From an uncultured delta proteobacterium (lineage in GTDB: Bacteria > Myxococcota_A > UBA9160 > JAFDET01), in assembly GCA_947260035.1 (NCBI GenBank), contig CAMYOO010000007.1:1-37388 (forward strand): a stretch of DNA of 37,388 nt. The letters run 5' to 3'. The notes beneath the pieces are model-generated. The model was not told where the DNA came from. It made no database searches and saw only the letters and a program-made list of their open reading frames with translations. Position 1 is the stretch's first letter. Every line of letters starts with the position of its first letter. This document shows, one piece after another, positions 19,136 to 37,388 of the stretch. A program made the translations under genes and the position numbers.

Positions 19136-21556
19136 TCAGCTCCCGCCGCCGACGGCCTCGGCCACCATGCCTCGCAGCTCGGCGGGGCGCTCGGCGAAGG
19201 TGCGGCGCGCGCGCTGGAAGAGCGTGAACCGACGCTCGAGGAACTGCTGCCGCTCTTCCTCGGAGACGACCCCCGGGGTGCGGGGCATGGCCCAGGTCCG
19301 CTCCAGGCTCTCCAGCTCGTCCAGCAGCGCGAGCCAGCGGGGCTCGGCCACGACGGCGAGGAAGCGTTCCGCCGCAGCGGCATACCAGCTCGCGAAGTCG
19401 GCGTCCGCACGCAGGAGCTGGTCGAGGGCCTTCTCCGCCAGGAAGCGGGGAAACCAGCCTCGGGTGCCCAGGAACGCGCGCTGTCGCGCCAGTGTCGGCT
19501 CGCCCTGGGTGCGGAAGCCCTTGTCCAGGTCCCATGCCACCAGATGCACAAAGCCCGGTGTACGCCGGCGGTCGACGGCCACGTAGCCCTGGAGCGCATC
19601 GTCCTCGAAGGCCCCGCCCTGGGGCGCGTCGATGAAGATCCCGGTGAAGTGGAGCGCGACAATGCCGTCCAGATCCAGCTCCGCCTCCACATCCGCCAGG
19701 CTCATCTCACCGGACTCCAGCCGCGCGGCCAGGGCGTCCAGCCGCTGAAGGTCCCCCTTCTTCACCTTGAAGGGCTTGCCCTTGATCAGGTCGAAGTCGG
19801 CGTGCCCGAAACGGCTGGTCAAGAAATCATCGTCCACGTCTTCGAAAGCGATAATGCGGTTGTGGAGGACGCCGTTGACCAGGAGCACTGCGGGCCGGCT
19901 GCGCGCGGCAAGCCCGCCGGCCGCGCGCACCAGGTCGTACGCCACCTTGTCGACCCAGGCGACCGGAGTCGCGTCCAGAATCAGCCGGTCGGGCGCGGGC
20001 GCCAGTACCGGTTCGAACGGATCCAGGGGCAGACGCTCCGCCCCCAGCGAAGGACGCAGGCGCAGCTGGAAGGAGTTCTCGCGACCCCTGTCGGCCCCGG
20101 TGCCGGCGTGAGAGCGCAGGCCGGCATCTCCATCGAACGTGATGCCGCCAGCATCGAGAATCAAGGCCCGCGCGGGACGCTCCCACGCCGCCCCGCGCCC
20201 CGCGTTGTTGGGCACGATCCCGAACTCGGGATCGTGGAGGACGCGCGGATCGACGCCGAGCATCACCATGAGCTGGGTGGGAGGAGCGCCCACGTACACG
20301 ATCCGGCTCGACACCGGCGTGACCGCGCGACCGCCGCGAAACCCGCGCACGCGCAGCACCGTGGGCTCCTCGATCCGCAGAGGACCGTCGAGCCGCGCGG
20401 AGTCCGCGTCGGGGAGCGAACCGTCCAGGGTGTGGCGCAGCTCGTCGACCCCCGGCGGCGGCTCGACGCCGAACAGCAGCGGATCGCGCGACACGCTCGG
20501 AAACCCCGAGAGATCCGGCGCGGGCGCCAGCGCCCGCCCCAGCGGTGTGGGCGGCGCGTAACGGATCTCGGAGCCACCGTCGGGAACGCGCTGCCAGGTG
20601 CGACCGGGCACGAAGCGCTCGGGTGTCGCGTAGTCCGCCGCCCGGCCGGCGGGGTCCAGCAGTACCAGGGTCTCGCCGCTGCGGCGCATCCGGAAGCCGG
20701 TGTGCAGGTGCAATCCGTGCCGCCCATCGTCGCGGCCGGCACGCGCCAGCGACACGCGCTCCAGCTCCACGGCTCCGTCCCGCACTTCGAAGCGAATCTC
20801 CCACTTCCCCGGCCCCTCGATCCCGCTTGCCACGCGCAGGTGCCGGCGCCTGCGCGACGGCTGCAGCGCCGCTTCGAGCGGCGGACCCGCGTCCAACGTT
20901 ACGCGCAGCCGACTCGGGGCCGGACCCGGCGCGCGGGCGCCGACCCAGAGGTCGTAGGGGCCGGCGTCGGGCGCCTCCAGCACCACGCGCACCAGCCCCA
21001 CCGCCGCGGTCTCCGCCTTCGGATCCACCACGAGCCGCGGCGGATCGAGCAGGAGCCGCTCGCCATCCGCTTTCGGGTCCAGGATCGCCCCGACCGTGCG
21101 CGCCAGCGCGCTGCCGGCGCGATCCTTGCCGGACGCGAAAACCAGCAGGTGCTCTCCGGGCCCCAGGGTCACGTCGGGCAGGATCCAGCGCCGGCTCGAC
21201 CTGCGGCCATCCGCCAGGCTCCAGCCCGCCAGCGCCACACTCGCCTCGGCGCGGTTGAAGAGCTCGATCCAGTCCGACGGCGCCAGGTCTTCGTCGAAGA
21301 CGGCGTCGCGGTTCACGGTGGCGATCTCGTTGAGGACCAGCGGCGAACGCGGCGACCCCGGGCCGAGCGCCTCGAGACGGGCCAGGCTGCGCGCCGTACG
21401 CGTGGCCCGCGCCGTGGGTGCGGTATCGGATGCGCGGCTCTCGCCCGGACGCGGCAGCTGCCAGCGCTGCTGGATCCAGGCGGCGACGCCGATCGCGGCC
21501 AGTGCGAGCACAAGGCCCGCTAGCGCGCGGCGCCGATTGCGGTTGGGCGGGGCCAC
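19136..21556 (-). CDS. lamin-tail-domain / CotH-kinase-like secreted protein
   Basis: An 806-aa protein with an N-terminal signal anchor (ALAGLVLALAAIGVAAW, residues 11-27). Next is a lamin-tail-like domain from about 72, with LVLNEIATVN and SDWIELFNRAEASVALAGWSLAD; it seems to carry an insert and close near PDGGSEIRYAPPTPLG. A chitobiase-type β-sandwich follows (LRHTLDGSLPDADSARLDGPL). The C-terminal 350 aa are CotH-kinase-like, with HAGTGADRGRENSFQLRL, DLIKGKPFKVKKGD, LDLDGIVALHF and HLVAWDLDKGF. CotH proteins are atypical kinases that phosphorylate surface proteins. LTD-CotH proteins are known to travel with VTC and DUF4956 genes, as here. Start GTG 21556, 6 bp after the DUF4956 stop. Kinase activity is inferred. 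Confidence 0.85.
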   Translation of the reverse strand: MAPPNRNRRRALAGLVLALAAIGVAAWIQQRWQLPRPGESRASDTAPTARATRTARSLARLEALGPGSPRSPLVLNEIATVNRDAVFDEDLAPSDWIELFNRAEASVALAGWSLADGRRSSRRWILPDVTLGPGEHLLVFASGKDRAGSALARTVGAILDPKADGERLLLDPPRLVVDPKAETAAVGLVRVVLEAPDAGPYDLWVGARAPGPAPSRLRVTLDAGPPLEAALQPSRRRRHLRVASGIEGPGKWEIRFEVRDGAVELERVSLARAGRDDGRHGLHLHTGFRMRRSGETLVLLDPAGRAADYATPERFVPGRTWQRVPDGGSEIRYAPPTPLGRALAPAPDLSGFPSVSRDPLLFGVEPPPGVDELRHTLDGSLPDADSARLDGPLRIEEPTVLRVRGFRGGRAVTPVSSRIVYVGAPPTQLMVMLGVDPRVLHDPEFGIVPNNAGRGAAWERPARALILDAGGITFDGDAGLRSHAGTGADRGRENSFQLRLRPSLGAERLPLDPFEPVLAPAPDRLILDATPVAWVDKVAYDLVRAAGGLAARSRPAVLLVNGVLHNRIIAFEDVDDDFLTSRFGHADFDLIKGKPFKVKKGDLQRLDALAARLESGEMSLADVEAELDLDGIVALHFTGIFIDAPQGGAFEDDALQGYVAVDRRRTPGFVHLVAWDLDKGFRTQGEPTLARQRAFLGTRGWFPRFLAEKALDQLLRADADFASWYAAAAERFLAVVAEPRWLALLDELESLERTWAMPRTPGVVSEEERQQFLERRFTLFQRARRTFAERPAELRGMVAEAVGGGS

Positions 21557-21562
21557 CCGTCC

Positions 21563-22261
21563 CTAGACGCCGCCCTGCCGCGAGAAGAGCACCGAGACGT
21601 CCTCGGGCGCGCAGTGCTCTGCGATCGCCGCACGCGTCGCACTCCAGTCGATGCCCGGACGGCCGCGGAAGGCGTAGTTGAGGTGCGTGCGACCGTCTCG
21701 TGCCGACAGGTGCTCCAGCCGCACGCGGCCCAGGCGCGCGGCCAGGAAACCCTCGAGAGCGCCCCCGTGACGGGCGAAGGCCTCGTCGTCCAGGGTGAGC
21801 ATGAGCATGCCCCCGTGACGCCCGCGGCCTCCCAGGCGATCTCCCAGGAAGCGGCGCCCGGCCAGGACCAGCAGCACGATGGCGAAGAGCATCCCCAGCA
21901 GCCCGTAGCTGGCGGTGGCGCAGGCGATGGACGAGGCGATCACGATCATCAGGAAGCCCACCTCTTCGGGCTCCTTGATGGGAACGCGGAATCGCACGAT
22001 GGAGAGAGCGCCGAGCAGGCCCAGCGAGAGGGGCAAGGAGAGCTGGACCGTGATGAAGAGCAGAGTCACCGACGGCCCCACCAACATGAACGAGCGCTGG
22101 ATCTGGGAGCCGGTTTCCACGTGATCGTAGAAGGTCTCGTACAGAAGCTGGGCCGCCAGCGCCGCCGCGGTGGAGACCAGCAGGGCCAGCGCCATTCCCG
22201 CGGCGCCCAGCTCGCTCCCGGGCGGGGATGCCGCCACCAAGCGATCCAGAAGGGTCTGCAT
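21563..22261 (-). CDS. DUF4956-family membrane protein
   Basis: A 232-aa protein with about four hydrophobic segments in the first 150 residues. The hallmark stretch LLGALSIVRFRVPIKEPEEVGFLMIVIASSIACATASYG identifies DUF4956. The C-terminal ~80 aa are soluble, with a ferredoxin-like βαβ look. Function is unknown. The family is regularly encoded beside VTC-domain and CotH genes, suggesting a membrane partner of the polymerase. The true start is ATG 22261, overlapping the VTC stop by one base (TGATG). The ORF track's 321-aa form is extended through the VTC gene. Confidence 0.88.
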   Translation of the reverse strand: MQTLLDRLVAASPPGSELGAAGMALALLVSTAAALAAQLLYETFYDHVETGSQIQRSFMLVGPSVTLLFITVQLSLPLSLGLLGALSIVRFRVPIKEPEEVGFLMIVIASSIACATASYGLLGMLFAIVLLVLAGRRFLGDRLGGRGRHGGMLMLTLDDEAFARHGGALEGFLAARLGRVRLEHLSARDGRTHLNYAFRGRPGIDWSATRAAIAEHCAPEDVSVLFSRQGGV

Positions 22262-22965
22262 CAGGCGCATCCTCCTCGGACATGGTCGACACACAGGCCG
22301 TACTTGGAGAGCGCGGTCTTGCGCGCGTAGCGCCCGATCAGCCGCGACAGCCAGGGCGCGGGCTGCGCGTGGTCGCCCTTCACTTCGACGACGAAGAAGG
22401 GAAGCCGGCCCGGCGGGCGCCGCTGCGCCAGTGTCGACGCCGCCCAGCGCACCGAGACGTCCCGATCCAATGCGATGCGCGCGCTGCCGTCGGGAGCGAT
22501 GCGTCGCAGCCGGCGGTAGCTGAGCCACAGCACCGGCCGCAGAGAAACGCTCAGGTGCTCGCGCACCAGCGCGGCCAGCGCCACCTCATCCGGGCGTTCG
22601 AGCGGAGCGAAGGCGATGCGCTTGCGCCGCTTGCCACCGAGCGCACCGACCCGGAACTTGGACTCGAGCCAGGCGTGGCCGTCCCCCGGCTCGTACCAAC
22701 GCAGGCGAAGCTTCTCCTTGACGTACTGCCCGTCGGCCTTGTCCCGATAGGCCACCAATCGCGGCGTGTCGTAGTAGACCGAGTGCACCACGTTCTCCGC
22801 AAAGTCGGGGTCCGGAGGGCAGTGAGCGACCAGCAGCGCCTCCATGGCACCCACGCGCGAGGCCGGCCCGACGTACTTGAGCTCGTGGCGTGCGGCAGAC
22901 GTCTGCCAGCCCGGCGCCAGGACGCCGGCCTGCGAGGCCGCTTCGCTTCCGGACGCGGAGATCAC
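22261..22965 (-). CDS. VTC-domain polyphosphate-polymerase-like protein
   Basis: A compact 234-aa VTC domain of the CYTH/triphosphate-tunnel type. The tunnel-lining basic and acidic residues are visible: RHELKY (26-31), YYDTP (64-68), KLRLRW (R87, R89), LESKFR (E101, K103), the basic patch KRRKR, YRRLRR (150-155), ALDRDVSV, VVEVKGD (E194, K196) and LSKYG (K221). In yeast Vtc4 such residues bind triphosphate and polymerise ATP γ-phosphate into polyphosphate. Bacterial VTC proteins are only partly characterised. It starts at GTG 22965, overlapping the lipoprotein TGA by 4 bp, and its stop overlaps the DUF4956 start. No membrane segment of its own, so DUF4956 may provide one. Confidence 0.9.
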   Translation of the reverse strand: MISASGSEAASQAGVLAPGWQTSAARHELKYVGPASRVGAMEALLVAHCPPDPDFAENVVHSVYYDTPRLVAYRDKADGQYVKEKLRLRWYEPGDGHAWLESKFRVGALGGKRRKRIAFAPLERPDEVALAALVREHLSVSLRPVLWLSYRRLRRIAPDGSARIALDRDVSVRWAASTLAQRRPPGRLPFFVVEVKGDHAQPAPWLSRLIGRYARKTALSKYGLCVDHVRGGCA

Positions 22966-23903
22966 GGCCCGGGACAGGATTTGGGCCAACCGCCCAGGAA
23001 GGATGCCTTTCCCCAGCCGGAGGCCTCGCCGAAATTCAGCACGTAGATCGGGTTCGGGTGGTTGCCCTCCACGACGAAGAACTCGGAGCGCCCGTAGGCC
23101 AAGCCCTTGGCCATGTTCAAGCCGATGCTGGTCAGATCGTGACGGGCTTTCTCCTGCCGTGTCTTCCAATCCAACTGGACGAGCATGCGGTCCTGGGTGA
23201 GCACCCAGAGACTGCCGCCCTGCCGAGCCATGCCGACGATGCCGCCGTACTCGGAGACCCAAAGCGCCTCGGGCTCCTCGCCTTCGGCCCCGACGAAGCG
23301 GTTCTCAGCGTAATCGTAGACGTAGACCGCCGCTCCCAGGGCTACCAGGAGATCGCTGCCCACGATCTCGATGGGCCCGTACTTGTGACCCTCTTCCAGC
23401 GCCTTCCACTCCACGAACTTGAGGTTCTCGCCCTTCGCCGGGCTCTGGAGCATGAAGATCGCCGGCTTGTCCACCGCCGGCGTCTCCTTCAGCTTGTTCA
23501 CGGTGTTGACCACGTACAGCGTCCGCTTCGCGCGGTCGTAGGCCAGCGATTCGAACTCAGCGGTGTAGGAGCAGTCCACGTCCGCGGATCCGTTGTCGCA
23601 GGCCTTGGCGTCCGGAAACGCCGCCGTGAAGTCGCGCTGGCGCAGACGCGCGCGGTAGGCGCCCGTCTCGCTGTCCACGATGTAGATCTGGTTCGAGTTG
23701 TCGTCGCCCACCCAGAGCTGGTCGCTGCCCTTCTCGAAGGTCAGGTCCTCGAGGTCGGCCGCCACGACCCGCGAGCCCTCGAAGGGCTTGCTGCGGATGG
23801 TGCGGGCCACGCACAGGCCCTCCACCGGCGTCGAGCGATGCACGCAGGCCGACGCGAAGACGACGACCCAGGCGAAGGCCAGCATGAGGCGGACGGCGCG
23901 CAT
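22962..23903 (-). CDS. lipoprotein, β-propeller (phytase-like/SdiA-regulated-like)
   Basis: A 313-aa exported lipoprotein: MRAVRLMLAFAWVVVFASAC has a hydrophobic core ending in a lipobox-like ASAC, with C20 as the lipidation site. The mature part has repeated strand patterns such as DLEDLTFEKGSDQLWVGDD, FESLAYDRAKRTLYVVNT and GIVGMARQGGSLWVLTQD. This matches a β-propeller of the phytase-like or SdiA-regulated kind. Phytase-like activity would suit the phosphate theme of the operon, but no catalytic set can be confirmed. The start ATG 23903 has GGGAGGGG about 9 nt upstream. As the first gene of the minus-strand operon it overlaps the VTC gene by 4 bp. Confidence 0.8.
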   Translation of the reverse strand: MRAVRLMLAFAWVVVFASACVHRSTPVEGLCVARTIRSKPFEGSRVVAADLEDLTFEKGSDQLWVGDDNSNQIYIVDSETGAYRARLRQRDFTAAFPDAKACDNGSADVDCSYTAEFESLAYDRAKRTLYVVNTVNKLKETPAVDKPAIFMLQSPAKGENLKFVEWKALEEGHKYGPIEIVGSDLLVALGAAVYVYDYAENRFVGAEGEEPEALWVSEYGGIVGMARQGGSLWVLTQDRMLVQLDWKTRQEKARHDLTSIGLNMAKGLAYGRSEFFVVEGNHPNPIYVLNFGEASGWGKASFLGGWPKSCPGP

Positions 23904-23936
23904 CCCTGAGAATCCCCTCCCGGGTGGCATACCCGC

Positions 23937-23957
23937 GCGGAATCCTAGGGATTCCGC
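23937..23957. promoter_or_regulatory. 9-bp-arm palindrome in the divergent intergenic region
   Basis: GCGGAATCC-TAG-GGATTCCGC is a perfect inverted repeat with a 3-nt centre. It lies in the 123-bp gap from which the VTC/UbiA operon (minus) and the sulfation operon (plus) diverge. Its symmetry and position suit a dimeric regulator's operator shared by both operons. It might instead be a small hairpin. A TAGACT at 24001-24006 is a possible plus-strand -10 box without a good -35. Confidence 0.4.
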
Positions 23958-24026
23958 CCCGTTGCCACCAGCGCGGCTGGCCCCTTCCGGCGCGGGCCCG
24001 TAGACTGCGGCCGACCCGGAGGTCCC

Positions 24027-24863
24027 GTGCCCCGTCGCATCGAACGCGTCCTCCAGCGACTGCTCCCCGGGGCGGCTGCCCGCCTTCCCCTGCCGGACTT
24101 CCTGGGCATCGGCGCCCAGAAGGCGGGCACCACCTGGCTGGCGGCCAATCTGCGTCGACACCCGGACGTGTTCATGCCGGAGCGCAAGGAGCTGCACTTC
24201 TTCGACAACAAGTGGGACCGCCCGCTGCGCGAGTACGCGCGGCACTTCGAGGGGGGCGCAGGCCGGATCAAGGGCGAGATCACTCCCGCCTACGGGATCC
24301 TGCCCCCGGAGCGAATCCGCTACCTGCGCCGGGTGATGCCGCGCGTGCGGTTGCTGCTGCTGCTGCGCAACCCGATCGAACGCGCCTGGTCCCATGCGCT
24401 GATGGACCTGGCCTCCCGGCGCGGACGCGACCCCGAGCAGATCCCGTTCGACGAAGCGATCGCGTTCCTGGAGTCCGACCTGGCCGTGCGACGCAGCGAC
24501 TACGGAGCCATGCTCGACGCCTGGCTGGCGGTGTTCCCGCGCGAGCAGCTCTACGTGGGCTTCTTCGAGTGGATTCGCGAGCGACCCCGCGAGCTGTTGT
24601 CCGAGGTCTTCCGCCACATCGGCGTCTCCCCGGAGGTAGACTGGGCGGACTTCCCACTGGAGAAGGTGATCGTGCCCGGCGTCGCTCCCGGACGAAAGGG
24701 ACACACCACCGAGTGCCTGGAGCGTGCCGAGGGCTCCGACGAGAGCGGCCGGCACTCCTGCCCCGAGCCGGTGCGCCGCTGGCTGGAGCAGCGCTATGCA
24801 GACGACCTGGAGCGGCTGGCCCAACGGCTGGGCGGCCCGGCCGAACGCTGGCGCGTCTCATGA
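24027..24863 (+). CDS. PAPS-dependent sulfotransferase (first of three)
   Basis: A 278-aa cytosolic sulfotransferase of the heparan-sulfate/NDST-like group, which transfers sulfate from PAPS to a sugar hydroxyl or amine. The 5'-phosphosulfate-binding loop is LGIGAQKAGTTWL, with catalytic-type K32. MPERKELHFFDNKW and IKGEITPAYG follow as in NDST/HS3ST relatives, and the 3'-phosphate-binding segment is LLLRNPIERAWSHAL (R114, S122). The start is GTG 24027 with GGAGGT just upstream. It is the first gene of the plus-strand operon and overlaps the sulfatase by 4 bp (ATGA). The acceptor is unknown; context favours a glycan. Confidence 0.92.
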   Translation: MPRRIERVLQRLLPGAAARLPLPDFLGIGAQKAGTTWLAANLRRHPDVFMPERKELHFFDNKWDRPLREYARHFEGGAGRIKGEITPAYGILPPERIRYLRRVMPRVRLLLLLRNPIERAWSHALMDLASRRGRDPEQIPFDEAIAFLESDLAVRRSDYGAMLDAWLAVFPREQLYVGFFEWIRERPRELLSEVFRHIGVSPEVDWADFPLEKVIVPGVAPGRKGHTTECLERAEGSDESGRHSCPEPVRRWLEQRYADDLERLAQRLGGPAERWRVS

Positions 24864-26341
24864 GCGGCGCGGATCGAGGCCGGCGTTCTCTGCTCGAACG
24901 GCTGCGGTCCTGGGCCGACCGGCCGCCGACCGGACCGCGGCCTCCCAACGTGCTGCTGATCCTGTCCGACGAGCACAACGCGGGGGTCGCCGGCTTCGCC
25001 GGAAACCGCGTGGCCCGGACGCCGAACCTGGACGATCTGGCGGCGCGCGGCGTGGTCTTCGACGCGGCCTACTGCAACTCGCCTCTCTGCGGGCCCTCGC
25101 GCATGTCCCTCACGGCGGTGCGCCATCCGTCGCGGGTGAGCGCCTGGGGCAACGCCTCGTGGCTCCCCAGCGACGACGTGCCGTCGATCGCCCGGGCCAT
25201 GAACGCCGCCGGCTACGAGTCCCTGCTGTGCGGCAAGCAGCACTACGACGCCACGCGCCGCTACGGCTTCCGCGAGCTCGGCTCGTGGCGCACGAACCAG
25301 TATCGCAAGACGGGAATCGTGCGCCGACGAGACCCCGACGACTGGACGCCCCCGGAGCAGATCTCCAAGCGCTTCTCCAACTTCCGGCCGGGCGATGACT
25401 CGCCGGTGATGCGCCACGACCGCGCCGTCACCGAGACCGCGGGTTCCTTCCTGCGGCGTCGCAGCCGCAAGGACGCTCCCTTCTTCCTGCTGGTGGGCTA
25501 CCTGGCGCCCCACTTTCCGCTGATCGTGCCCGAAGCGTACTGGAACCGGTATCGCGGCCGGGTGCCGCTGCCGGAGATACCGCCCGGCCACCTGGAGAGC
25601 CAGCCGCGAAACTACCGGCACCTGCGCCTGGGCTTTGCCATGCAGGATGTCCCCGAGGAAACCGTGCTGAAGGGGCGCGAGCTCTACTACGGGCTCAGCG
25701 AGTGGATGGACGACCAGGTCGGCCGGCTGCTGGGTGCGCTCCAGCGCAGCCGGGTCGCCGACGACACCGTCGTCATCTACGCCAGCGACCACGGGGAGAG
25801 CCTTGGCGAGCACGGCTTGTGGTGGAAGAACTGCGCCTACGAAGGCGCCAGCCGGGTTCCCCTGGTGGTGAGCTGGCCCGAGCGCTGGAAGGGCGGCCAG
25901 CGCCGCAACGGAGCGTGCTCCCTCGTGGACCTGATGCAGAGCATCGCCGAGCTGGGCGGCGCCGAGCCCGACGCCGCCTGGGACGGCGACTCCCTGTGCA
26001 GCTGGCTCGACGCGGCCGAGACCCCGTGGAAGGACCGTGCGCTCTCCGAGTACTACGGTCACAACGTGACCTCGGCCTTCAGCATGCTGCGCAGTGGATC
26101 CTGGAAGTACGTCTACCACACGCCGCCGGACGCTCGGCACCCGGCGGAGCGGGAGCTCTACGACCTGGCGGCCGACCCGGGCGAGTTCGACAATCGGGCC
26201 GAGGACCCGGAGCAGGCCCAGCGCGTCGAGGCGCTGCACCGGGAGCTGGTGGACACGGTGGGCGAGGATCCCGACGCCGTGGACGCGCGCTGCCGGGCGG
26301 AAGTGACGACGGGCTACCAGCGGAGCGACGAACCGTCATGA
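24860..26341 (+). CDS. formylglycine-type sulfatase
   Basis: A 493-aa alkaline-phosphatase-fold sulfatase. NVLLILSDEHN carries the metal-binding Asp. SPLCGPSRMS is the CxPSR signature, whose C77 would be converted to formylglycine by FGE or an anaerobic SME. Later ASDHGESLGEHGLWWK gives the metal-binding DHG. No N-terminal signal peptide is visible (MSGADRGRRSLLERLRSW), suggesting cytoplasmic action, unlike most polysaccharide sulfatases. It starts at ATG 24860, overlapping the sulfotransferase stop by 4 bp, and overlaps the next gene by 4 bp. The ORF track's 805-aa form runs through the sulfotransferase in another frame and is spurious. Substrate unknown; opposition to the adjacent sulfotransferase is inference. 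Confidence 0.92.
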   Translation: MSGADRGRRSLLERLRSWADRPPTGPRPPNVLLILSDEHNAGVAGFAGNRVARTPNLDDLAARGVVFDAAYCNSPLCGPSRMSLTAVRHPSRVSAWGNASWLPSDDVPSIARAMNAAGYESLLCGKQHYDATRRYGFRELGSWRTNQYRKTGIVRRRDPDDWTPPEQISKRFSNFRPGDDSPVMRHDRAVTETAGSFLRRRSRKDAPFFLLVGYLAPHFPLIVPEAYWNRYRGRVPLPEIPPGHLESQPRNYRHLRLGFAMQDVPEETVLKGRELYYGLSEWMDDQVGRLLGALQRSRVADDTVVIYASDHGESLGEHGLWWKNCAYEGASRVPLVVSWPERWKGGQRRNGACSLVDLMQSIAELGGAEPDAAWDGDSLCSWLDAAETPWKDRALSEYYGHNVTSAFSMLRSGSWKYVYHTPPDARHPAERELYDLAADPGEFDNRAEDPEQAQRVEALHRELVDTVGEDPDAVDARCRAEVTTGYQRSDEPS

Positions 26342-29006: not shown

Positions 29007-29840
29007 ATGCACCGCGAGAAGACGACGGTCCTGCCGAGCTTCCGCGTCGCGACGGCCCCGCTGCGCATGCTCCCGGCCTTCTCGATCATCTCCGTCGAGC
29101 GCGCCGGCACCACGTCGTTGTATCGCTACCTGTGCCAGCACCCGCGGATCGGCGAGGCCTTCCGCAAGGAAGTGCACTACTTCGACATGAACCACGGGCG
29201 CGGTGTCGGCTGGTACCGCGCTCACTTCCCCAGCCGCGCCTGGTCGCGCTGGTCGGCGCTACGCCAGGGAGGTGCCGGGATCACCGGCGAGGCCAGCCCC
29301 TACTACCTCTACCACCCCCACGTTCCGGTTCGCATGGCCGAGCTGCTCCCGGACGTGAAGCTGGTGGCGCTGGTTCGCAACCCCGTGGAACGCGCCTACT
29401 CGCACTACCACCTGAACGTGCGCCAGGAGAAGGAGACGCTGTCCTTCGAGGATGCCCTGGATCGCGAGGAAGAGCGTCTTGCCGGCGAGTGGGAGAAGCT
29501 GGTGGCCGATCCGGACTATTGGAGCCACGCCCACTACACGTTCGCCTACCGGGCCCGCGGCCTCTACGCCCAGCGCCTGGAGGAGTGGCACAAGCACTTC
29601 GCACCGGAGCGGATCCTGGTGGTGCGCAGCGAGGACCTCTACGCCGATCCCGCCTCGGTGGTGACCCGGGTCTTCCAGCACCTGGAGCTTCCGGACTTTC
29701 GGCCCGAGGGCTTCAAAGCCTACAACCAGAAGCCCTACCCCGGGCTGTCGGCGGAGACGCGACGCGGCCTGGCGCAGTTCTTCGAGCCTCACAACCAGCG
29801 TCTGTACGAGCTTCTGGGTCGCGACCTCGGCTGGACGTGA
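29007..29840 (+). CDS. PAPS-dependent sulfotransferase (second of three)
   Basis: A 277-aa sulfotransferase of the NDST/HS-sulfotransferase-like family. The phosphosulfate loop is FSIISVERAGTTSLYRYL, with Arg (R32) where heparan enzymes have Lys; this occurs in many bacterial members. KEVHYFDMNHGRG and ITGEASPYYLYHP follow. The 3'-phosphate site is LVALVRNPVERAYSHYHL. The C-terminus (YADPASVVTRVFQHLELPDF) is standard. ATG 29007. Its TGA overlaps the next GTG by 4 bp. It is clearly diverged from the sulfotransferase at 24027, so this is not a recent duplication, and a different position or acceptor is likely. Confidence 0.92.
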   Translation: MHREKTTVLPSFRVATAPLRMLPAFSIISVERAGTTSLYRYLCQHPRIGEAFRKEVHYFDMNHGRGVGWYRAHFPSRAWSRWSALRQGGAGITGEASPYYLYHPHVPVRMAELLPDVKLVALVRNPVERAYSHYHLNVRQEKETLSFEDALDREEERLAGEWEKLVADPDYWSHAHYTFAYRARGLYAQRLEEWHKHFAPERILVVRSEDLYADPASVVTRVFQHLELPDFRPEGFKAYNQKPYPGLSAETRRGLAQFFEPHNQRLYELLGRDLGWT

Positions 29841-31270: not shown

Positions 31271-31298
31271 CCCCGGGGTGGCCTATCATGCTTGCACC

Positions 31299-32135
31299 GT
31301 GACTGCCCAGCAGAGCCAGCCGCGCGCCCGTCCCATCGTGGTCATCGGGATGCACCGGTCGGGGACGTCCCTGGTCGCCCGCATCCTGGCCGCGGCGGGA
31401 GTCCAGATGGGGGCGGACCGCAACCTCCACGACGAGTCCGACTTCTTCCGCGAGCTCAACAAAGAGATCTTCCGCGCAGCTCACGCAGACTGGGACTGGC
31501 CGCTGGCCACCATCCCGGCCCTGGAGGACAAGACCCTCTGCGACAACCTGGCCGCGCACCTGACCGAGCGCTGCGCCTCGAAGAACGCCCGGGCCTACCT
31601 GGGGCGACGGTTCGGCAAGGCGGACCTGGCCGCCCAGACGGACCGCTGGGGTTGGAAGGACCCCCGCAACACCTGCACGCTGCCGCTCTGGCTGCGGGTC
31701 TTTCCCGAAGCCCGGGTGGTCAACGTGTACCGCGACGGCGTGGACGTGGCCGCCAGCCTGGTCACGCGGGAGCGCAAGCGCGCGGGGCGATTGGAGAACG
31801 CGATCCGTTCCTCGCGCTGCCTGGACCCGGACCGGGCGTTCGGCTTGTGGACGGAGTACGTGGAGCGGAGCCTCGACGTAACCGCCGAGCTCCCGCCCGC
31901 CCGGGTTCGCGACATTCGCTACGAGCGGCTGATGGCGAAGCCCTATGAGGCGGTGCGCGAGCTGCTGGCGTTCCTCGAGCTGGGCCGGGACGAAGCCGAG
32001 GTGGCTGCGCTGATGCGCATGGTCGACCCGGAACGCGGCCAGGCCGCGCGCAAGGATCCCGAGTGGGAGACGCTGCGACGCGCCAAGACCTTCCACCCGC
32101 TCATGCGGCGCCTCGACTACGGCGACGGCCCGTGA
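31299..32135 (+). CDS. sulfotransferase family protein (third of three)
   Basis: A 278-aa sulfotransferase of the Sulfotransfer_3-like group, distinct from the two NDST-like ones upstream. The phosphosulfate loop is VVIGMHRSGTSLVARIL. The HDESDFFRELN segment, WGWKDPRNTCTLPLW and NVYRDGVDVAASLV are family hallmarks, and the last is the 3'-phosphate site. Two GTG starts are possible, at 31278 and 31299. I prefer 31299, because the longer form adds an unlikely AYHACTV and neither has a good Shine-Dalgarno. A TATCAT at 31284-31289 could be a -10 box for a nearly leaderless internal transcript. Its TGA overlaps the following fusion gene by 4 bp. Confidence 0.88.
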   Translation: MTAQQSQPRARPIVVIGMHRSGTSLVARILAAAGVQMGADRNLHDESDFFRELNKEIFRAAHADWDWPLATIPALEDKTLCDNLAAHLTERCASKNARAYLGRRFGKADLAAQTDRWGWKDPRNTCTLPLWLRVFPEARVVNVYRDGVDVAASLVTRERKRAGRLENAIRSSRCLDPDRAFGLWTEYVERSLDVTAELPPARVRDIRYERLMAKPYEAVRELLAFLELGRDEAEVAALMRMVDPERGQAARKDPEWETLRRAKTFHPLMRRLDYGDGP

Positions 32136-34312
32136 CCCCGCGCGTCGACGTGATCCTGCCCCTCCACGGCGGCGAGCGCTGGGTGGAGGAGGCGGTGCAG
32201 AGCGTGCTGGCGCAGAGCTTCGACGACTGGCAGCTCTGGGCGGTGGACGATGCCTCGCCCGACGCCAGCGCCGACCGCGTGGAGGCGCTCGCCGAGCTGC
32301 GTCCCGACCGCATCGAGGTCCTGCGCCTGGAGCGGCCGCTGCGGGCGGCCGGCGCGCGCATGCACGCGATCGGCCGGGGCCGCGGCGAGCTGCTCGCCTT
32401 CCTGGACCAGGACGACCGCTGGCGCCCGGAGAAGCTGGAGCGACAGGTGGCGCGCTTCGACGCCGACGCGGAGCTGGGCGCCGTGCACGGTGACGCCGCC
32501 ATCATCGACGAAGGCGGTGCCGTGGTGCCCGGCGCCGCAGACCGCGAGAACGCCCTACGCGCGCGGCTCGCCTGGGGGACCGGGGCGGCGCTGTCGGCCA
32601 CGCTCTTCGAGAAGAACGCGATCCGGCTGGGCTCGGCGATGCTGCGGCGCAGCGCCTTCGAGGCCGCGGGAGGCTTCGACACCTCGCTCTTCGGCGGCGA
32701 GGACTGGGAGTTCTGGGTGCGCTTCGCCGAGCGCTTCTCGATCGCCCACCTGCCCCGGGTGCTGCTGGAGCGTCGCGTACACGGTGAGAACGTCTCGCGG
32801 GTGCATGCCGCGGCGCGCGCGGAAGGCAAGCTGCGCGCCGTGGAGAAGGCGGTGCGCGCGCAACCCCAGCTGGGACCGCTGGCCGCCCGGCGGCGGCGCG
32901 CAATCCGCAGCGCCGCCGGGATTCCCGAACCGCCTCAGGCCACGGCGACCCGTCTTTTCGCAAGCCTGGACCAGGCCGGCGTCCGCTACTGCCATTGGAA
33001 GAGCAACGAACACGTGGCCGCGGCGCTGGCCGGCCGCACCGACTTCGATCTGCTGGTGGACCCCACGGACCGCGAGCCCTTCGAGGCCGTGCTGGCGACG
33101 CTGGACTTCAAGGAAGTGGAGGCGCCGCCGGAGAAGCGCTTTCCCGGCATGCGTGACCGGCTGGGCTTCGACCCCGAGAGCGGCGGACTGCTGCACCTGC
33201 ATGTTCACGAGCAGCTGATCCTCGGCGCCGCCGGCGTCAAGAACCACCGGATTCCCATCGAAGCGCTGCTCCTGGACGATGGACGCCGGATCGACGGCGT
33301 GCGGGCGCCGGCCCCGGAGCTGGAGCTTCTGCTCCTGGCGATCCGCGCGCCGCTCAAGGTCTCGCTGAAGCGCATCCTGCAGCGCTGGCGCAAGGACGGA
33401 ACCAAGACGCTCCAGAGCGCCCTGGTCCGGGAGATGGCCTTCCTGCTCCCCGATGTGGATGAGGCCCACTTCGGCGAAGCCGTGGCCAAGACGGGCCTGG
33501 CCCTGGACGCCGACACGATCCTGACCTTCGTGCGGAGCGCACGCGACGCGACGCTGACGACACCGGAGCTCCACCGCTTCCGGCGGGCCGTGCTGCAGGC
33601 GCTGCGCCCCTACCGGCGGGACTCCGCGGCGGGCGCCGCGGCGCGCGCCGTGAGAGCGCGGGCGCTTTCCTCCCGTGCGGGTCTCGTCCTGTTCGGCCCG
33701 CGCGGGCGGCGACTGCCGGGCGAGGGGCGGCTGATCGCCCTGGTGGGCGCCGACGGCTCGGGCAAGTCCACCCTGGCAGCGGAGCTGCGCACCTGGCTGG
33801 GCTGGAAGCTCGACGTGCGCGACGCCTACTTCGGGATTCCCAAGAGCTCGCGCGGCTACCGGCTGCTTCAGCGCATGCGCGGCGGGCGCCGCGGCGGCTG
33901 GATGGACGCAGAGCGCTGGCTCTTCGCCGCGCGCCACCGGCTGAGCCAGTACCGGCGGGCGCGGCGCCACACCCGCCGCGGCGGCATCGTGATCGCCGAC
34001 CGCTACCCGCTTCCCGAGCTCTGGGCGCCCCCCGAGCCCATGGATGGGCCGCGCCTGTCCGGCCAGGGCATGGCCGGGCGCGAACGCAACCTCTACGCGC
34101 GCATCGGCCCGCCGGACCGAGCCTTCGTCCTGCGCACCGACCTGGAGCTGCTGCGGCGCCGCGAGCCCCGGGTGGAGCCCGGCATTCACGCGCGCAAGGC
34201 CCAGGTGGTGAACGCCCTCGGCGACTCGGAGGTGCGCAGCGTGGTGGACGGAAACCGGCCCTACGAGGAAGTGCTGCTCGACCTCAAGCGCCGGATCTGG
34301 GCGCTGCTCTGA
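32132..34312 (+). CDS. GT2 glycosyltransferase - nucleotidyltransferase-like - P-loop kinase fusion
   Basis: A 726-aa three-part protein. Residues 1-230 are a GT2 domain, with VDVILPLHGGERW, WAVDDASPD (D39, D40), LAFLDQDDRW (92-95) and GGEDWEFWVRFAE. Residues about 275-480 look like a nucleotidyltransferase-fold domain, opening with RYCHWKSNEHV and TDFDLLVD (D304, D306, D310). Residues about 530-726 are a thymidylate-kinase-like P-loop domain: LIALVGADGSGKSTLA (K545), then IVIADRYPLPELW and a LID-like ERNLYARIGPPDRAFVLRTD. YCHWKSN proteins with kinase domains occur in polysaccharide loci, but their reaction is unknown. It starts at GTG 32132 (GTGA overlap). Plausibly it glycosylates and phosphorylates the same glycan; that is inference. 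Its last 29 bp overlap the convergent kinase gene. Confidence 0.85.
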   Translation: MTPRVDVILPLHGGERWVEEAVQSVLAQSFDDWQLWAVDDASPDASADRVEALAELRPDRIEVLRLERPLRAAGARMHAIGRGRGELLAFLDQDDRWRPEKLERQVARFDADAELGAVHGDAAIIDEGGAVVPGAADRENALRARLAWGTGAALSATLFEKNAIRLGSAMLRRSAFEAAGGFDTSLFGGEDWEFWVRFAERFSIAHLPRVLLERRVHGENVSRVHAAARAEGKLRAVEKAVRAQPQLGPLAARRRRAIRSAAGIPEPPQATATRLFASLDQAGVRYCHWKSNEHVAAALAGRTDFDLLVDPTDREPFEAVLATLDFKEVEAPPEKRFPGMRDRLGFDPESGGLLHLHVHEQLILGAAGVKNHRIPIEALLLDDGRRIDGVRAPAPELELLLLAIRAPLKVSLKRILQRWRKDGTKTLQSALVREMAFLLPDVDEAHFGEAVAKTGLALDADTILTFVRSARDATLTTPELHRFRRAVLQALRPYRRDSAAGAAARAVRARALSSRAGLVLFGPRGRRLPGEGRLIALVGADGSGKSTLAAELRTWLGWKLDVRDAYFGIPKSSRGYRLLQRMRGGRRGGWMDAERWLFAARHRLSQYRRARRHTRRGGIVIADRYPLPELWAPPEPMDGPRLSGQGMAGRERNLYARIGPPDRAFVLRTDLELLRRREPRVEPGIHARKAQVVNALGDSEVRSVVDGNRPYEEVLLDLKRRIWALL

Positions 34313-35099
34313 CCGCTCCGGCGAGATCCCGGGCCAGCTCTTCGCAGACCGGAGCCGCGCGCAGGGCATCGGCCGACGCGTAGCGGTTGGCGACCACAAA
34401 GACCGGAATCCTCCGCCGGCGCGCCTCGTCGGCGATCGCCTGGGCCACCCGCTCGCCACGCTGGACGAAGACCCGGACCTGCGCGGGATCGCGCCCGGCC
34501 AGGCGCTCGGGCAGGCCTCGCGCGGCCAGGCGCGCGCAGCATTCGTCCAGCTCGGCCTGTACGTGGACCAGCACGTCGGGGAATACCCAGACGCGCAGGA
34601 AGCGCTGCAGAGCCGGCTCGTCCAGCGCCGACTCCGGATCGGCGAACAGGTTCAGCGCGCGATGCGCGATGCCCTCCTCCCACAGGAAGAGGTCCATGCG
34701 CCGCGCCTGGGAGCGCAACATCAGCCAGGTCAGGATGCTGCGCTCGACCCAGCGCTCCAGGGTCTCGGCGGTCGCGGTGTCACGCTCGCGAATCGCCGCC
34801 AGCGCCTCGCGATAGCGACGCCAACCCGCGCGCTGGAAGGTGCGAAAGCGCCACAGGAGAAAGGGCGTCTCCACGTCCTTGAAGTACTCCAGGCGTTGGC
34901 CCGCGACCTCCCGCTCGCGCACCTGGGCGCCGGCCAGCTTGCCGACCCAGCCGTGGCGCATGTAGAGATCGCGGATCGCATCCCGGGGCGGCACGCGCAG
35001 CCGGCGCTCGCGCAGCAGCTCCGTGCAGCGCTCGGCCAGGGTGCTCTTCCCGCTTCCGGGCGCTCCCGTGAACTCGACGATACGCCCGCGCCGCGGCAT
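34284..35099 (-). CDS. P-loop kinase-like protein, uncharacterised
   Basis: A 271-aa protein opening with a Walker A motif, VEFTGAPGSGKSTLAERC (residues 8-25). The middle contains LFLWEEGIAHRALNLFAD, which could play the Walker B/substrate role of nucleoside- or sugar-kinase-like P-loop proteins. PDVLVHVQAELDECCARLAARGLPERLAGR resembles the LID region of adenylate/thymidylate-type kinases. The substrate is unknown. ATG 35099 is chosen because it places the P-loop directly at the N-terminus; the longer ORF to 35474 is antisense to the next gene. Its 3' end overlaps the fusion gene tail-to-tail by 29 bp. Having two unrelated-looking P-loop kinases side by side suggests a shared phosphorylation role, by inference. 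Confidence 0.78.
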   Translation of the reverse strand: MPRRGRIVEFTGAPGSGKSTLAERCTELLRERRLRVPPRDAIRDLYMRHGWVGKLAGAQVREREVAGQRLEYFKDVETPFLLWRFRTFQRAGWRRYREALAAIRERDTATAETLERWVERSILTWLMLRSQARRMDLFLWEEGIAHRALNLFADPESALDEPALQRFLRVWVFPDVLVHVQAELDECCARLAARGLPERLAGRDPAQVRVFVQRGERVAQAIADEARRRRIPVFVVANRYASADALRAAPVCEELARDLAGAVRAAPRSGA

Positions 35100-35178
35100 C
35101 CGCGCCACGGTAGCCCAGGGCGAACGTCCGGCTCTCCCCGCGCCGTGCCCGCGAATGAGGGCTAGCCTTGATCCGCCG

Positions 35179-37356: not shown

Positions 37357-37387
37357 GGCAACTAAAGGGACTGTCCCTTTAGTTGCC
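37357..37387. repeat. perfect 15-bp-arm palindrome, REP-like or terminator
   Basis: GGCAACTAAAGGGAC, a single T, then the exact reverse complement ends one base before the window edge. It starts 7 bp after the stop codon of the membrane-protein gene, so it could form a terminator hairpin. The AAAGGGAC core shares GGGAC with the repeat at 9390-9470, and both sit at gene 3' ends. The window ends here, so its full extent is unknown. Confidence 0.8.
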
Positions 37388-37388
37388 A

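Follow-up and report, generated by a model that had tools for sequence, protein, structure and literature searches.

A conserved nucleotidyltransferase-like and thymidylate-kinase-like protein of polysaccharide loci, fused to a GT2 glycosyltransferase in one bacterial family

The window (the whole stretch of 37,388 nt analysed here) carries a gene described in the earlier note as encoding a single 726-aa chain with a GT2 glycosyltransferase, a nucleotidyltransferase-like (NTase-like) and a thymidylate-kinase-like domain. This arrangement is borne out by translation, by a match to PF00535 and by the predicted folds (Table 1). The window is one complete contig, and its assembly has Myxococcota or deltaproteobacterial metagenome assemblies as nearest named relatives. 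The GTG start codon of the gene overlaps the TGA stop of the sulfotransferase gene before it, suggesting translational coupling. A sulfatase gene shares the window with this and a further sulfotransferase gene. Three consecutive genes on the minus strand encode a VTC-domain protein, a DUF4956 protein and an LTD/CotH-type protein. A near-perfect inverted repeat (ggcaactaaagggac/gtccctttagttgcc) lies at the contig end, and is possibly a repeat that broke the assembly.

Table 1. Positions of genes, domains and other features in the window.
Feature	Position	Strand	Basis or remark
LTD/CotH-type protein gene	19136–21556	−	Consecutive genes in 19136–23262
DUF4956 gene	21563–22528	−	As above
VTC-domain protein gene	22261–23262	−	As above
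Sulfatase gene	23924–26341	+	PF00884, 2.7e-46
Further sulfotransferase gene	29007–29840	+	PF00685, E 4.6e-19
Sulfotransferase gene	31278–32135	+	PF13469, E 7.2e-27; immediately 5′ of fusion gene
Fusion gene, 726 aa	32132–34312	+	Stop-free translation; GT2, NTase-like and thymidylate-kinase-like
GT2 domain, residues 1 to about 235	32132–32836	+	PF00535, motifs
NTase-like domain, residues 271 to about 500	32942–33631	+	AlphaFold2, VIA, conservation
Thymidylate-kinase-like P-loop domain, residues about 529–726	33716–34309	+	AlphaFold2, VIA, PF02223 in relatives
Second P-loop kinase gene, ATG at 35102, IVEFTGAPGSGKST	34284–35102	−	Convergent with fusion gene, 29-bp overlap
Inverted repeat	37357–37388		Contig end

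By every feature tested, the N-terminal domain is a GT2 glycosyltransferase. It matches PF00535 with an E-value of 3.3e-25 (89.4 bits against a Pfam cut-off of 23.3), and the motifs DDxSxD, DxD and ED are all present (DDASPD at 39, DQDD at 92 and GGEDWEFW at 188). When the full chain was searched, Pfam placed only weak P-loop matches at the C-terminal end, and the middle domain had no Pfam or informative NCBIfam match. The three-domain chain is uninterrupted in two other genomes, G001 (L012, about 71% overall identity) and G003 (L013, about 59%). Compared with G003, the GT2, NTase-like and kinase parts are 66%, 58% and 60% identical, against 27–43% for the linkers, indicating that each domain is under constraint. 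As the same chain recurs in both genomes with every domain conserved, the fusion is neither a chance event nor an assembly join. A further copy (G002, L011 6136–8221) shows the fusion with a loss of roughly 30 residues and a frameshift inside GT2, a lesion that may be either real or an assembly error.

The NTase domain is found in 17 of the 377 genomes of the phylum, and the GT2-fused frames are those of the window's own family, to which the fusion is confined within the sample (4/4 genomes). G140 has another long frame, of 967 aa. The apparently extended N-termini of L066, L090 and L170 (the last from G120) were rejected as fusions, being of low complexity and resembling a spurious reading frame. 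Restriction to one family, the standalone form of most relatives and the broken GT2 part in G002 would all fit an incidental fusion, in which GT2 serves another step of the pathway and became attached through loss of a stop codon. There is little probability in this explanation, given that GT2 is conserved across genera above the level of the other two domains, with intact catalytic motifs, and that a GT4 glycosyltransferase has been fused separately in another locus (L042).

AlphaFold2 models of the NTase-like domain alone (pLDDT 94.8) and of residues 271–726 (76 sequences, pLDDT 94.5, pTM 0.92) were compared with known structures. By VIA, the NTase-like domain aligns with MenT1 (8an4; Z 11.2, 164 aligned, rmsd 3.7) and ANT(2″)-Ia (5cfu; Z 9.7, 151 aligned, rmsd 3.9), and more weakly with LnuA (Z 8.3), TglT (8.3) and FKRP (6.3). 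Foldseek with the same domain gave no match below 0.001, the best rows being mostly nucleotidyltransferases, and a profile search of this part against PDB sequences gave no nucleotidyltransferase match. Forty of the 76 relatives match PF14907 (NTP_transf_5, uncharacterised nucleotidyltransferase) weakly, the best at 7.7e-6, and one matches Lnu(C). Alignment to PF14907 members by hhalign has a probability of 94%, and places KSN opposite KG, and D304xD306 opposite the catalytic DxD. A Pol-beta nucleotidyltransferase fold is supported for the middle domain by the predicted structure, in agreement with the earlier note; the match to a different fold that would have refuted the note was not seen.

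The motifs listed in that note were partly retained. YCHWKSN (286–292), D304-x-D306 and GADGSGKST (539–547) are present, but the last acid of the proposed D-x-D-x3-D, D310, is not conserved (D in 30/76 relatives). The conserved residues of the domain are Y286CHWKSN292, D304xD306, H355xH357xH359, K370, R405 and E434. KSN, D304 and D306 occur in all 76 sequences, an invariance that is partly due to selection because the patterns CHWKSN and ALxGxTDxD were used for retrieval. H357, G365, K370, R405 and E434 are likewise invariant (76/76), and none of them belongs to the retrieval patterns. H357 lies in a strand (LHLHVHE, positions 83–89 of the NTase core) that hhalign left unaligned; judged from strand order, it probably corresponds to the strand D/E-L-H-W of PF14907 members. 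The histidine seems to replace the third metal-binding carboxylate of Pol-beta nucleotidyltransferases, so nucleotidyl transfer is not assured. As read from the sequences of the relatives, the conserved motif is KSN…DxD plus the invariant His357, without D310.

Such a site could also belong to a non-catalytic domain whose part is to bind the glycan or else a nucleotide and offer it to the kinase, making phosphorylation the only chemistry besides that of GT2. KSN in place of KG, and a histidine at the expected position of the third acid, would be explained in this way. The idea is nonetheless judged improbable, as the invariance of D304, D306, K370, R405 and E434 suggests a working metal site.

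The C-terminal domain was predicted in the earlier note to be thymidylate-kinase-like, and by VIA its match to dTMP kinases does extend along the entire domain (Z 17.7, 176 aligned, rmsd 3.4); Foldseek gives E 1.4e-7 against the same enzymes. Besides the P-loop GADGSGKST, it carries D623-R624-Y-P and R677, and the Walker A lysine, the arginine of DR[YFW] and Arg677 are each found in 75 of the 76 sequences. PF02223 is matched by 57 of the 76 relatives. The model supports a thymidylate-kinase fold. The kinase domain of the fusion scores 14.9 bits against the TIGR00041 cut-off of 83.25. For PF14907, with a cut-off of 31.2 bits, the window copy has no match and the G003 copy scores 26.1. As it stays below both score cut-offs and lacks the KG motif, the window protein is filed in neither family.

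A housekeeping dTMP kinase role was rejected, sister genomes having separate copies and the genome of the window a partial one at the end of a contig. The nearby sulfotransferases raised the idea of a PAPS synthetase (adenylyl transfer to sulfate plus a kinase step); this was also discarded, with a canonical APS kinase in the genome and sulfotransferases in only 19 of 80 loci. Both roles are unlikely because separate genes serve them. Two other genomes of the same taxonomic order, G073 (contig C61, 137.5–143.2 kb) and G077 (contig C49, 10.8–16.0 kb), have three to four thymidylate-kinase-like genes, each standalone, in an array.

The 80 loci were retrieved by scanning genome contigs with the NTase-kinase core and the two patterns given above. 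Nearly all encode a standalone protein, with about 20–60 residues before the motif and about 415–485 after it, and the real unit is the NTase-kinase pair of roughly 480 aa. The survey supports the proposal that this pairing recurs as a polysaccharide-locus protein. It ranges over Pseudomonadota, Thermodesulfobacteriota, Nitrospirota, Chloroflexota, Cyanobacteriota, Actinomycetota, Bacillota, Bacteroidota, Planctomycetota, Campylobacterota and others, and includes one Halobacteriales assembly (a haloarchaeon). Pfam and NCBIfam hold no named family for the pair itself, it is annotated as "hypothetical protein" wherever annotation was seen, and nothing was found in the literature on this family or on the function of PF14907. 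No relative was found in viral contigs, so carriage by phages is unsupported.

When 76 cores were placed in a maximum-likelihood tree, the three rows with a GT2 fusion grouped in a single clade (100/99). Two further clades, with 18 and 35 rows and a support of 100/99 each, hold the GT4-fused L042, from G004 (L014/L042), and L075, which has a second-kinase domain fused at its N-terminus. A weaker case of C-terminal fusion to a second-kinase domain is L045. The simplest reading of the tree would be that one module has been fused separately to glycan enzymes. G004 also has a shorter extra NTase-kinase copy (L014 13281–14412) beside a Wzz-type gene, and its NTase half is without CHWKSN and DxD.

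The family of the second P-loop kinase directly adjoins the NTase-kinase gene in 48 of the 80 loci, and lies at most six genes away in 63 (iterated profile search). With genes called by an ORF heuristic, its members make up 49/151 genes at ±1, 11/142 at ±2 and 6/133 at ±3, and this fall with distance controls internally for chance. Also among the neighbours are GT4 glycosyltransferases, Wzx/Wzy, initiating sugar transferases (Bac_transf) and sulfotransferases. Chloroflexota loci have the window's order of sulfotransferase, NTase-kinase and second kinase, all on one strand there, and homologues of the sulfotransferase upstream of the fusion gene are again at position −1. In these loci an APH-type phosphotransferase follows the second kinase, either separate or fused to it (L033 3885–5885, L035 3007–4932), so that several phosphoryl-transfer enzymes cluster here. 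The order in Chelatococcus pTAD1 is O-antigen ligase family protein, tyrosine-kinase-domain protein, NTase-kinase, AAA family ATPase, flippase and export protein.

Wzc/Wzz-type genes near the NTase-kinase in some loci, and an NTase fold common to the MenT toxins, which act on macromolecules, would be compatible with a regulatory role. The NTase-like domain and the kinase would then modify a protein (e.g., a Wzc-type co-polymerase or a glycosyltransferase) and so control polysaccharide output. This is very unlikely, since the proteins fused or adjacent to the NTase-kinase act on glycans, and the immediate neighbour is the second kinase, with no constant protein target. Nor is the gene flanked by the antitoxin gene expected of a MenT/AbiEii system; its flanks are a sulfotransferase and a P-loop kinase, and the neighbours of the family are glycan genes.

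The chain combines folds that are already known in a new variant. It shares the Pol-beta NTase fold, a lysine before a small-residue turn and DxD with PF14907, differing in KSN for KG and in the invariant H357 where, on the strand pairing described, members of that family have D/E. With dTMP kinases (TIGR00041/PF02223) it shares the whole fold, Walker A, DR[YFW] and Arg677; the low TIGR00041 score and the glycan-locus setting set it apart. ANT(2″)-Ia, MenT1 and FKRP have the NTase fold in common with the window protein at 10–19% sequence identity, but act on different substrates and have no thymidylate-kinase domain. ANT(2″)-Ia and LnuA nucleotidylate hydroxyls of antibiotics, and FKRP is a ribitol-phosphate transferase whose acceptor is a glycan.

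The logic of phosphorylating and then capping is known from WbdD, the terminator of the O9a O-antigen, in which a single chain both phosphorylates the glycan, through its kinase, and caps the phosphate, through another activity. Unlike the window chain, WbdD has a protein-kinase-like fold and a methyl cap, and lacks NTase and GT2 domains. The closest parallel in function to a kinase paired with an NTase-like protein comes from the biosynthesis of pseudomycoidin, a lasso peptide, in which PsmK phosphorylates Ser and PsmN is needed for adding hexoses to that phosphate (PMC9266682, PMC8498205). PsmN is annotated as a nucleotidyltransferase, and a review leaves open whether it has glycosyltransferase activity of its own (PMC9266682, PMC8498205). 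The likeness lies in the succession of two steps, by a kinase and then by a protein annotated as a nucleotidyltransferase, PsmN being likened here by its annotation; PsmK is an HPr-kinase-type enzyme and the substrate is a peptide.

Standalone homologues of the kinase domain are encoded in E. coli by yghS, yghT and the third gene of their run, yghR, annotated as dTMP-kinase-like (L158 7324–9693), with counterparts in Rahnella (L097 2922–5498). Flippase-type and LptF/LptG-like genes adjoin this run, which is without NTase or GT domains; the operon has an acyl-AMP ligase, an acyl carrier protein and a PLP aminotransferase, and represents an uncharacterised lipid-like cluster. A lead from these operons to CpgB and ceramide phosphoglycerate was dropped, as CpgB is of the diacylglycerol-kinase type (PMC10331486) and no relative.

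It is tentatively proposed, at rather less than an even chance, that the chain tailors a glycan in the cytoplasm as part of a surface-polysaccharide pathway, in which GT2 places a sugar, the kinase phosphorylates and the NTase-like domain caps. GT2 would add a sugar to a growing, probably lipid-linked, glycan; the thymidylate-kinase-like domain would transfer phosphate from ATP to that sugar or to a phosphate group which the sugar already carries; and the NTase-like domain would attach a nucleotidyl or glycosyl-phosphate group to this phosphate as a cap, so that the decoration is phosphodiester-linked. The adjoining second kinase may carry out a further phosphorylation on the same route. Catalysis by the NTase-like and kinase domains, the order of the steps and the substrate are inferred. 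A role in glycan modification is suggested for the kinase by its full thymidylate-kinase structure and motifs, set against the separate dTMP kinases of sister genomes, and capping by the fold matches to ANT(2″)-Ia and LnuA and, more weakly, FKRP. The glycan setting itself follows from the neighbours (GT4, Wzx/Wzy, Bac_transf and sulfotransferases) and from the separate GT2, GT4 and second-kinase fusions. The clustering of phosphoryl-transfer enzymes in Chloroflexota loci and the PsmK/PsmN parallel also speak for the proposal. That GT2 and the NTase-kinase act on a common substrate is suggested by the fusion, most relatives being without a fused glycosyltransferase. Counting against the proposal, His357 seems to stand in for the third carboxylate, and thymidylate kinases normally act on a phosphate and not on a sugar hydroxyl.

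The union of kinase and NTase in a single chain, its more than one fusion to a glycosyltransferase and a second kinase nearby (and a third in Chloroflexota) would alternatively fit the supply of a donor: a small molecule, such as a free sugar or a polyol, would be phosphorylated by the kinases and activated with a nucleotide by the NTase, and GT2 or GT4 would transfer it. FKP and HldE, bifunctional kinase/nucleotidyltransferases, are alike in logic and unlike in fold. No Pol-beta-fold enzyme is known to make a nucleotide sugar, the closest folds move nucleotidyl or phosphate groups onto finished acceptors, and the glycosyltransferase partner varies (GT2, GT4 or none fused), so donor synthesis is regarded as rather unlikely. 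Extending the glycan-tailoring proposal, the NTase-kinase and second kinase may form an undescribed system by which polysaccharides of bacteria and archaea receive a new kind of decoration, nucleotidyl- or glycosyl-phosphate in phosphodiester linkage, with glycosyl transfer, phosphorylation and capping here by one polypeptide; this wider reading is speculative and rather doubtful.

The NTase-kinase pair is a conserved two-domain protein of polysaccharide clusters in many bacterial phyla and a haloarchaeon, without a named family. Its separate fusions to two kinds of glycosyltransferase, and its partner kinase, provide handles for tracing a putative phosphate-based glycan modification that annotation would miss, and the fusion in the window indicates which chemistries probably meet. 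The best guess from predicted folds and gene context is that the NTase-kinase probably adds phosphate-containing decorations to a sugar chain.
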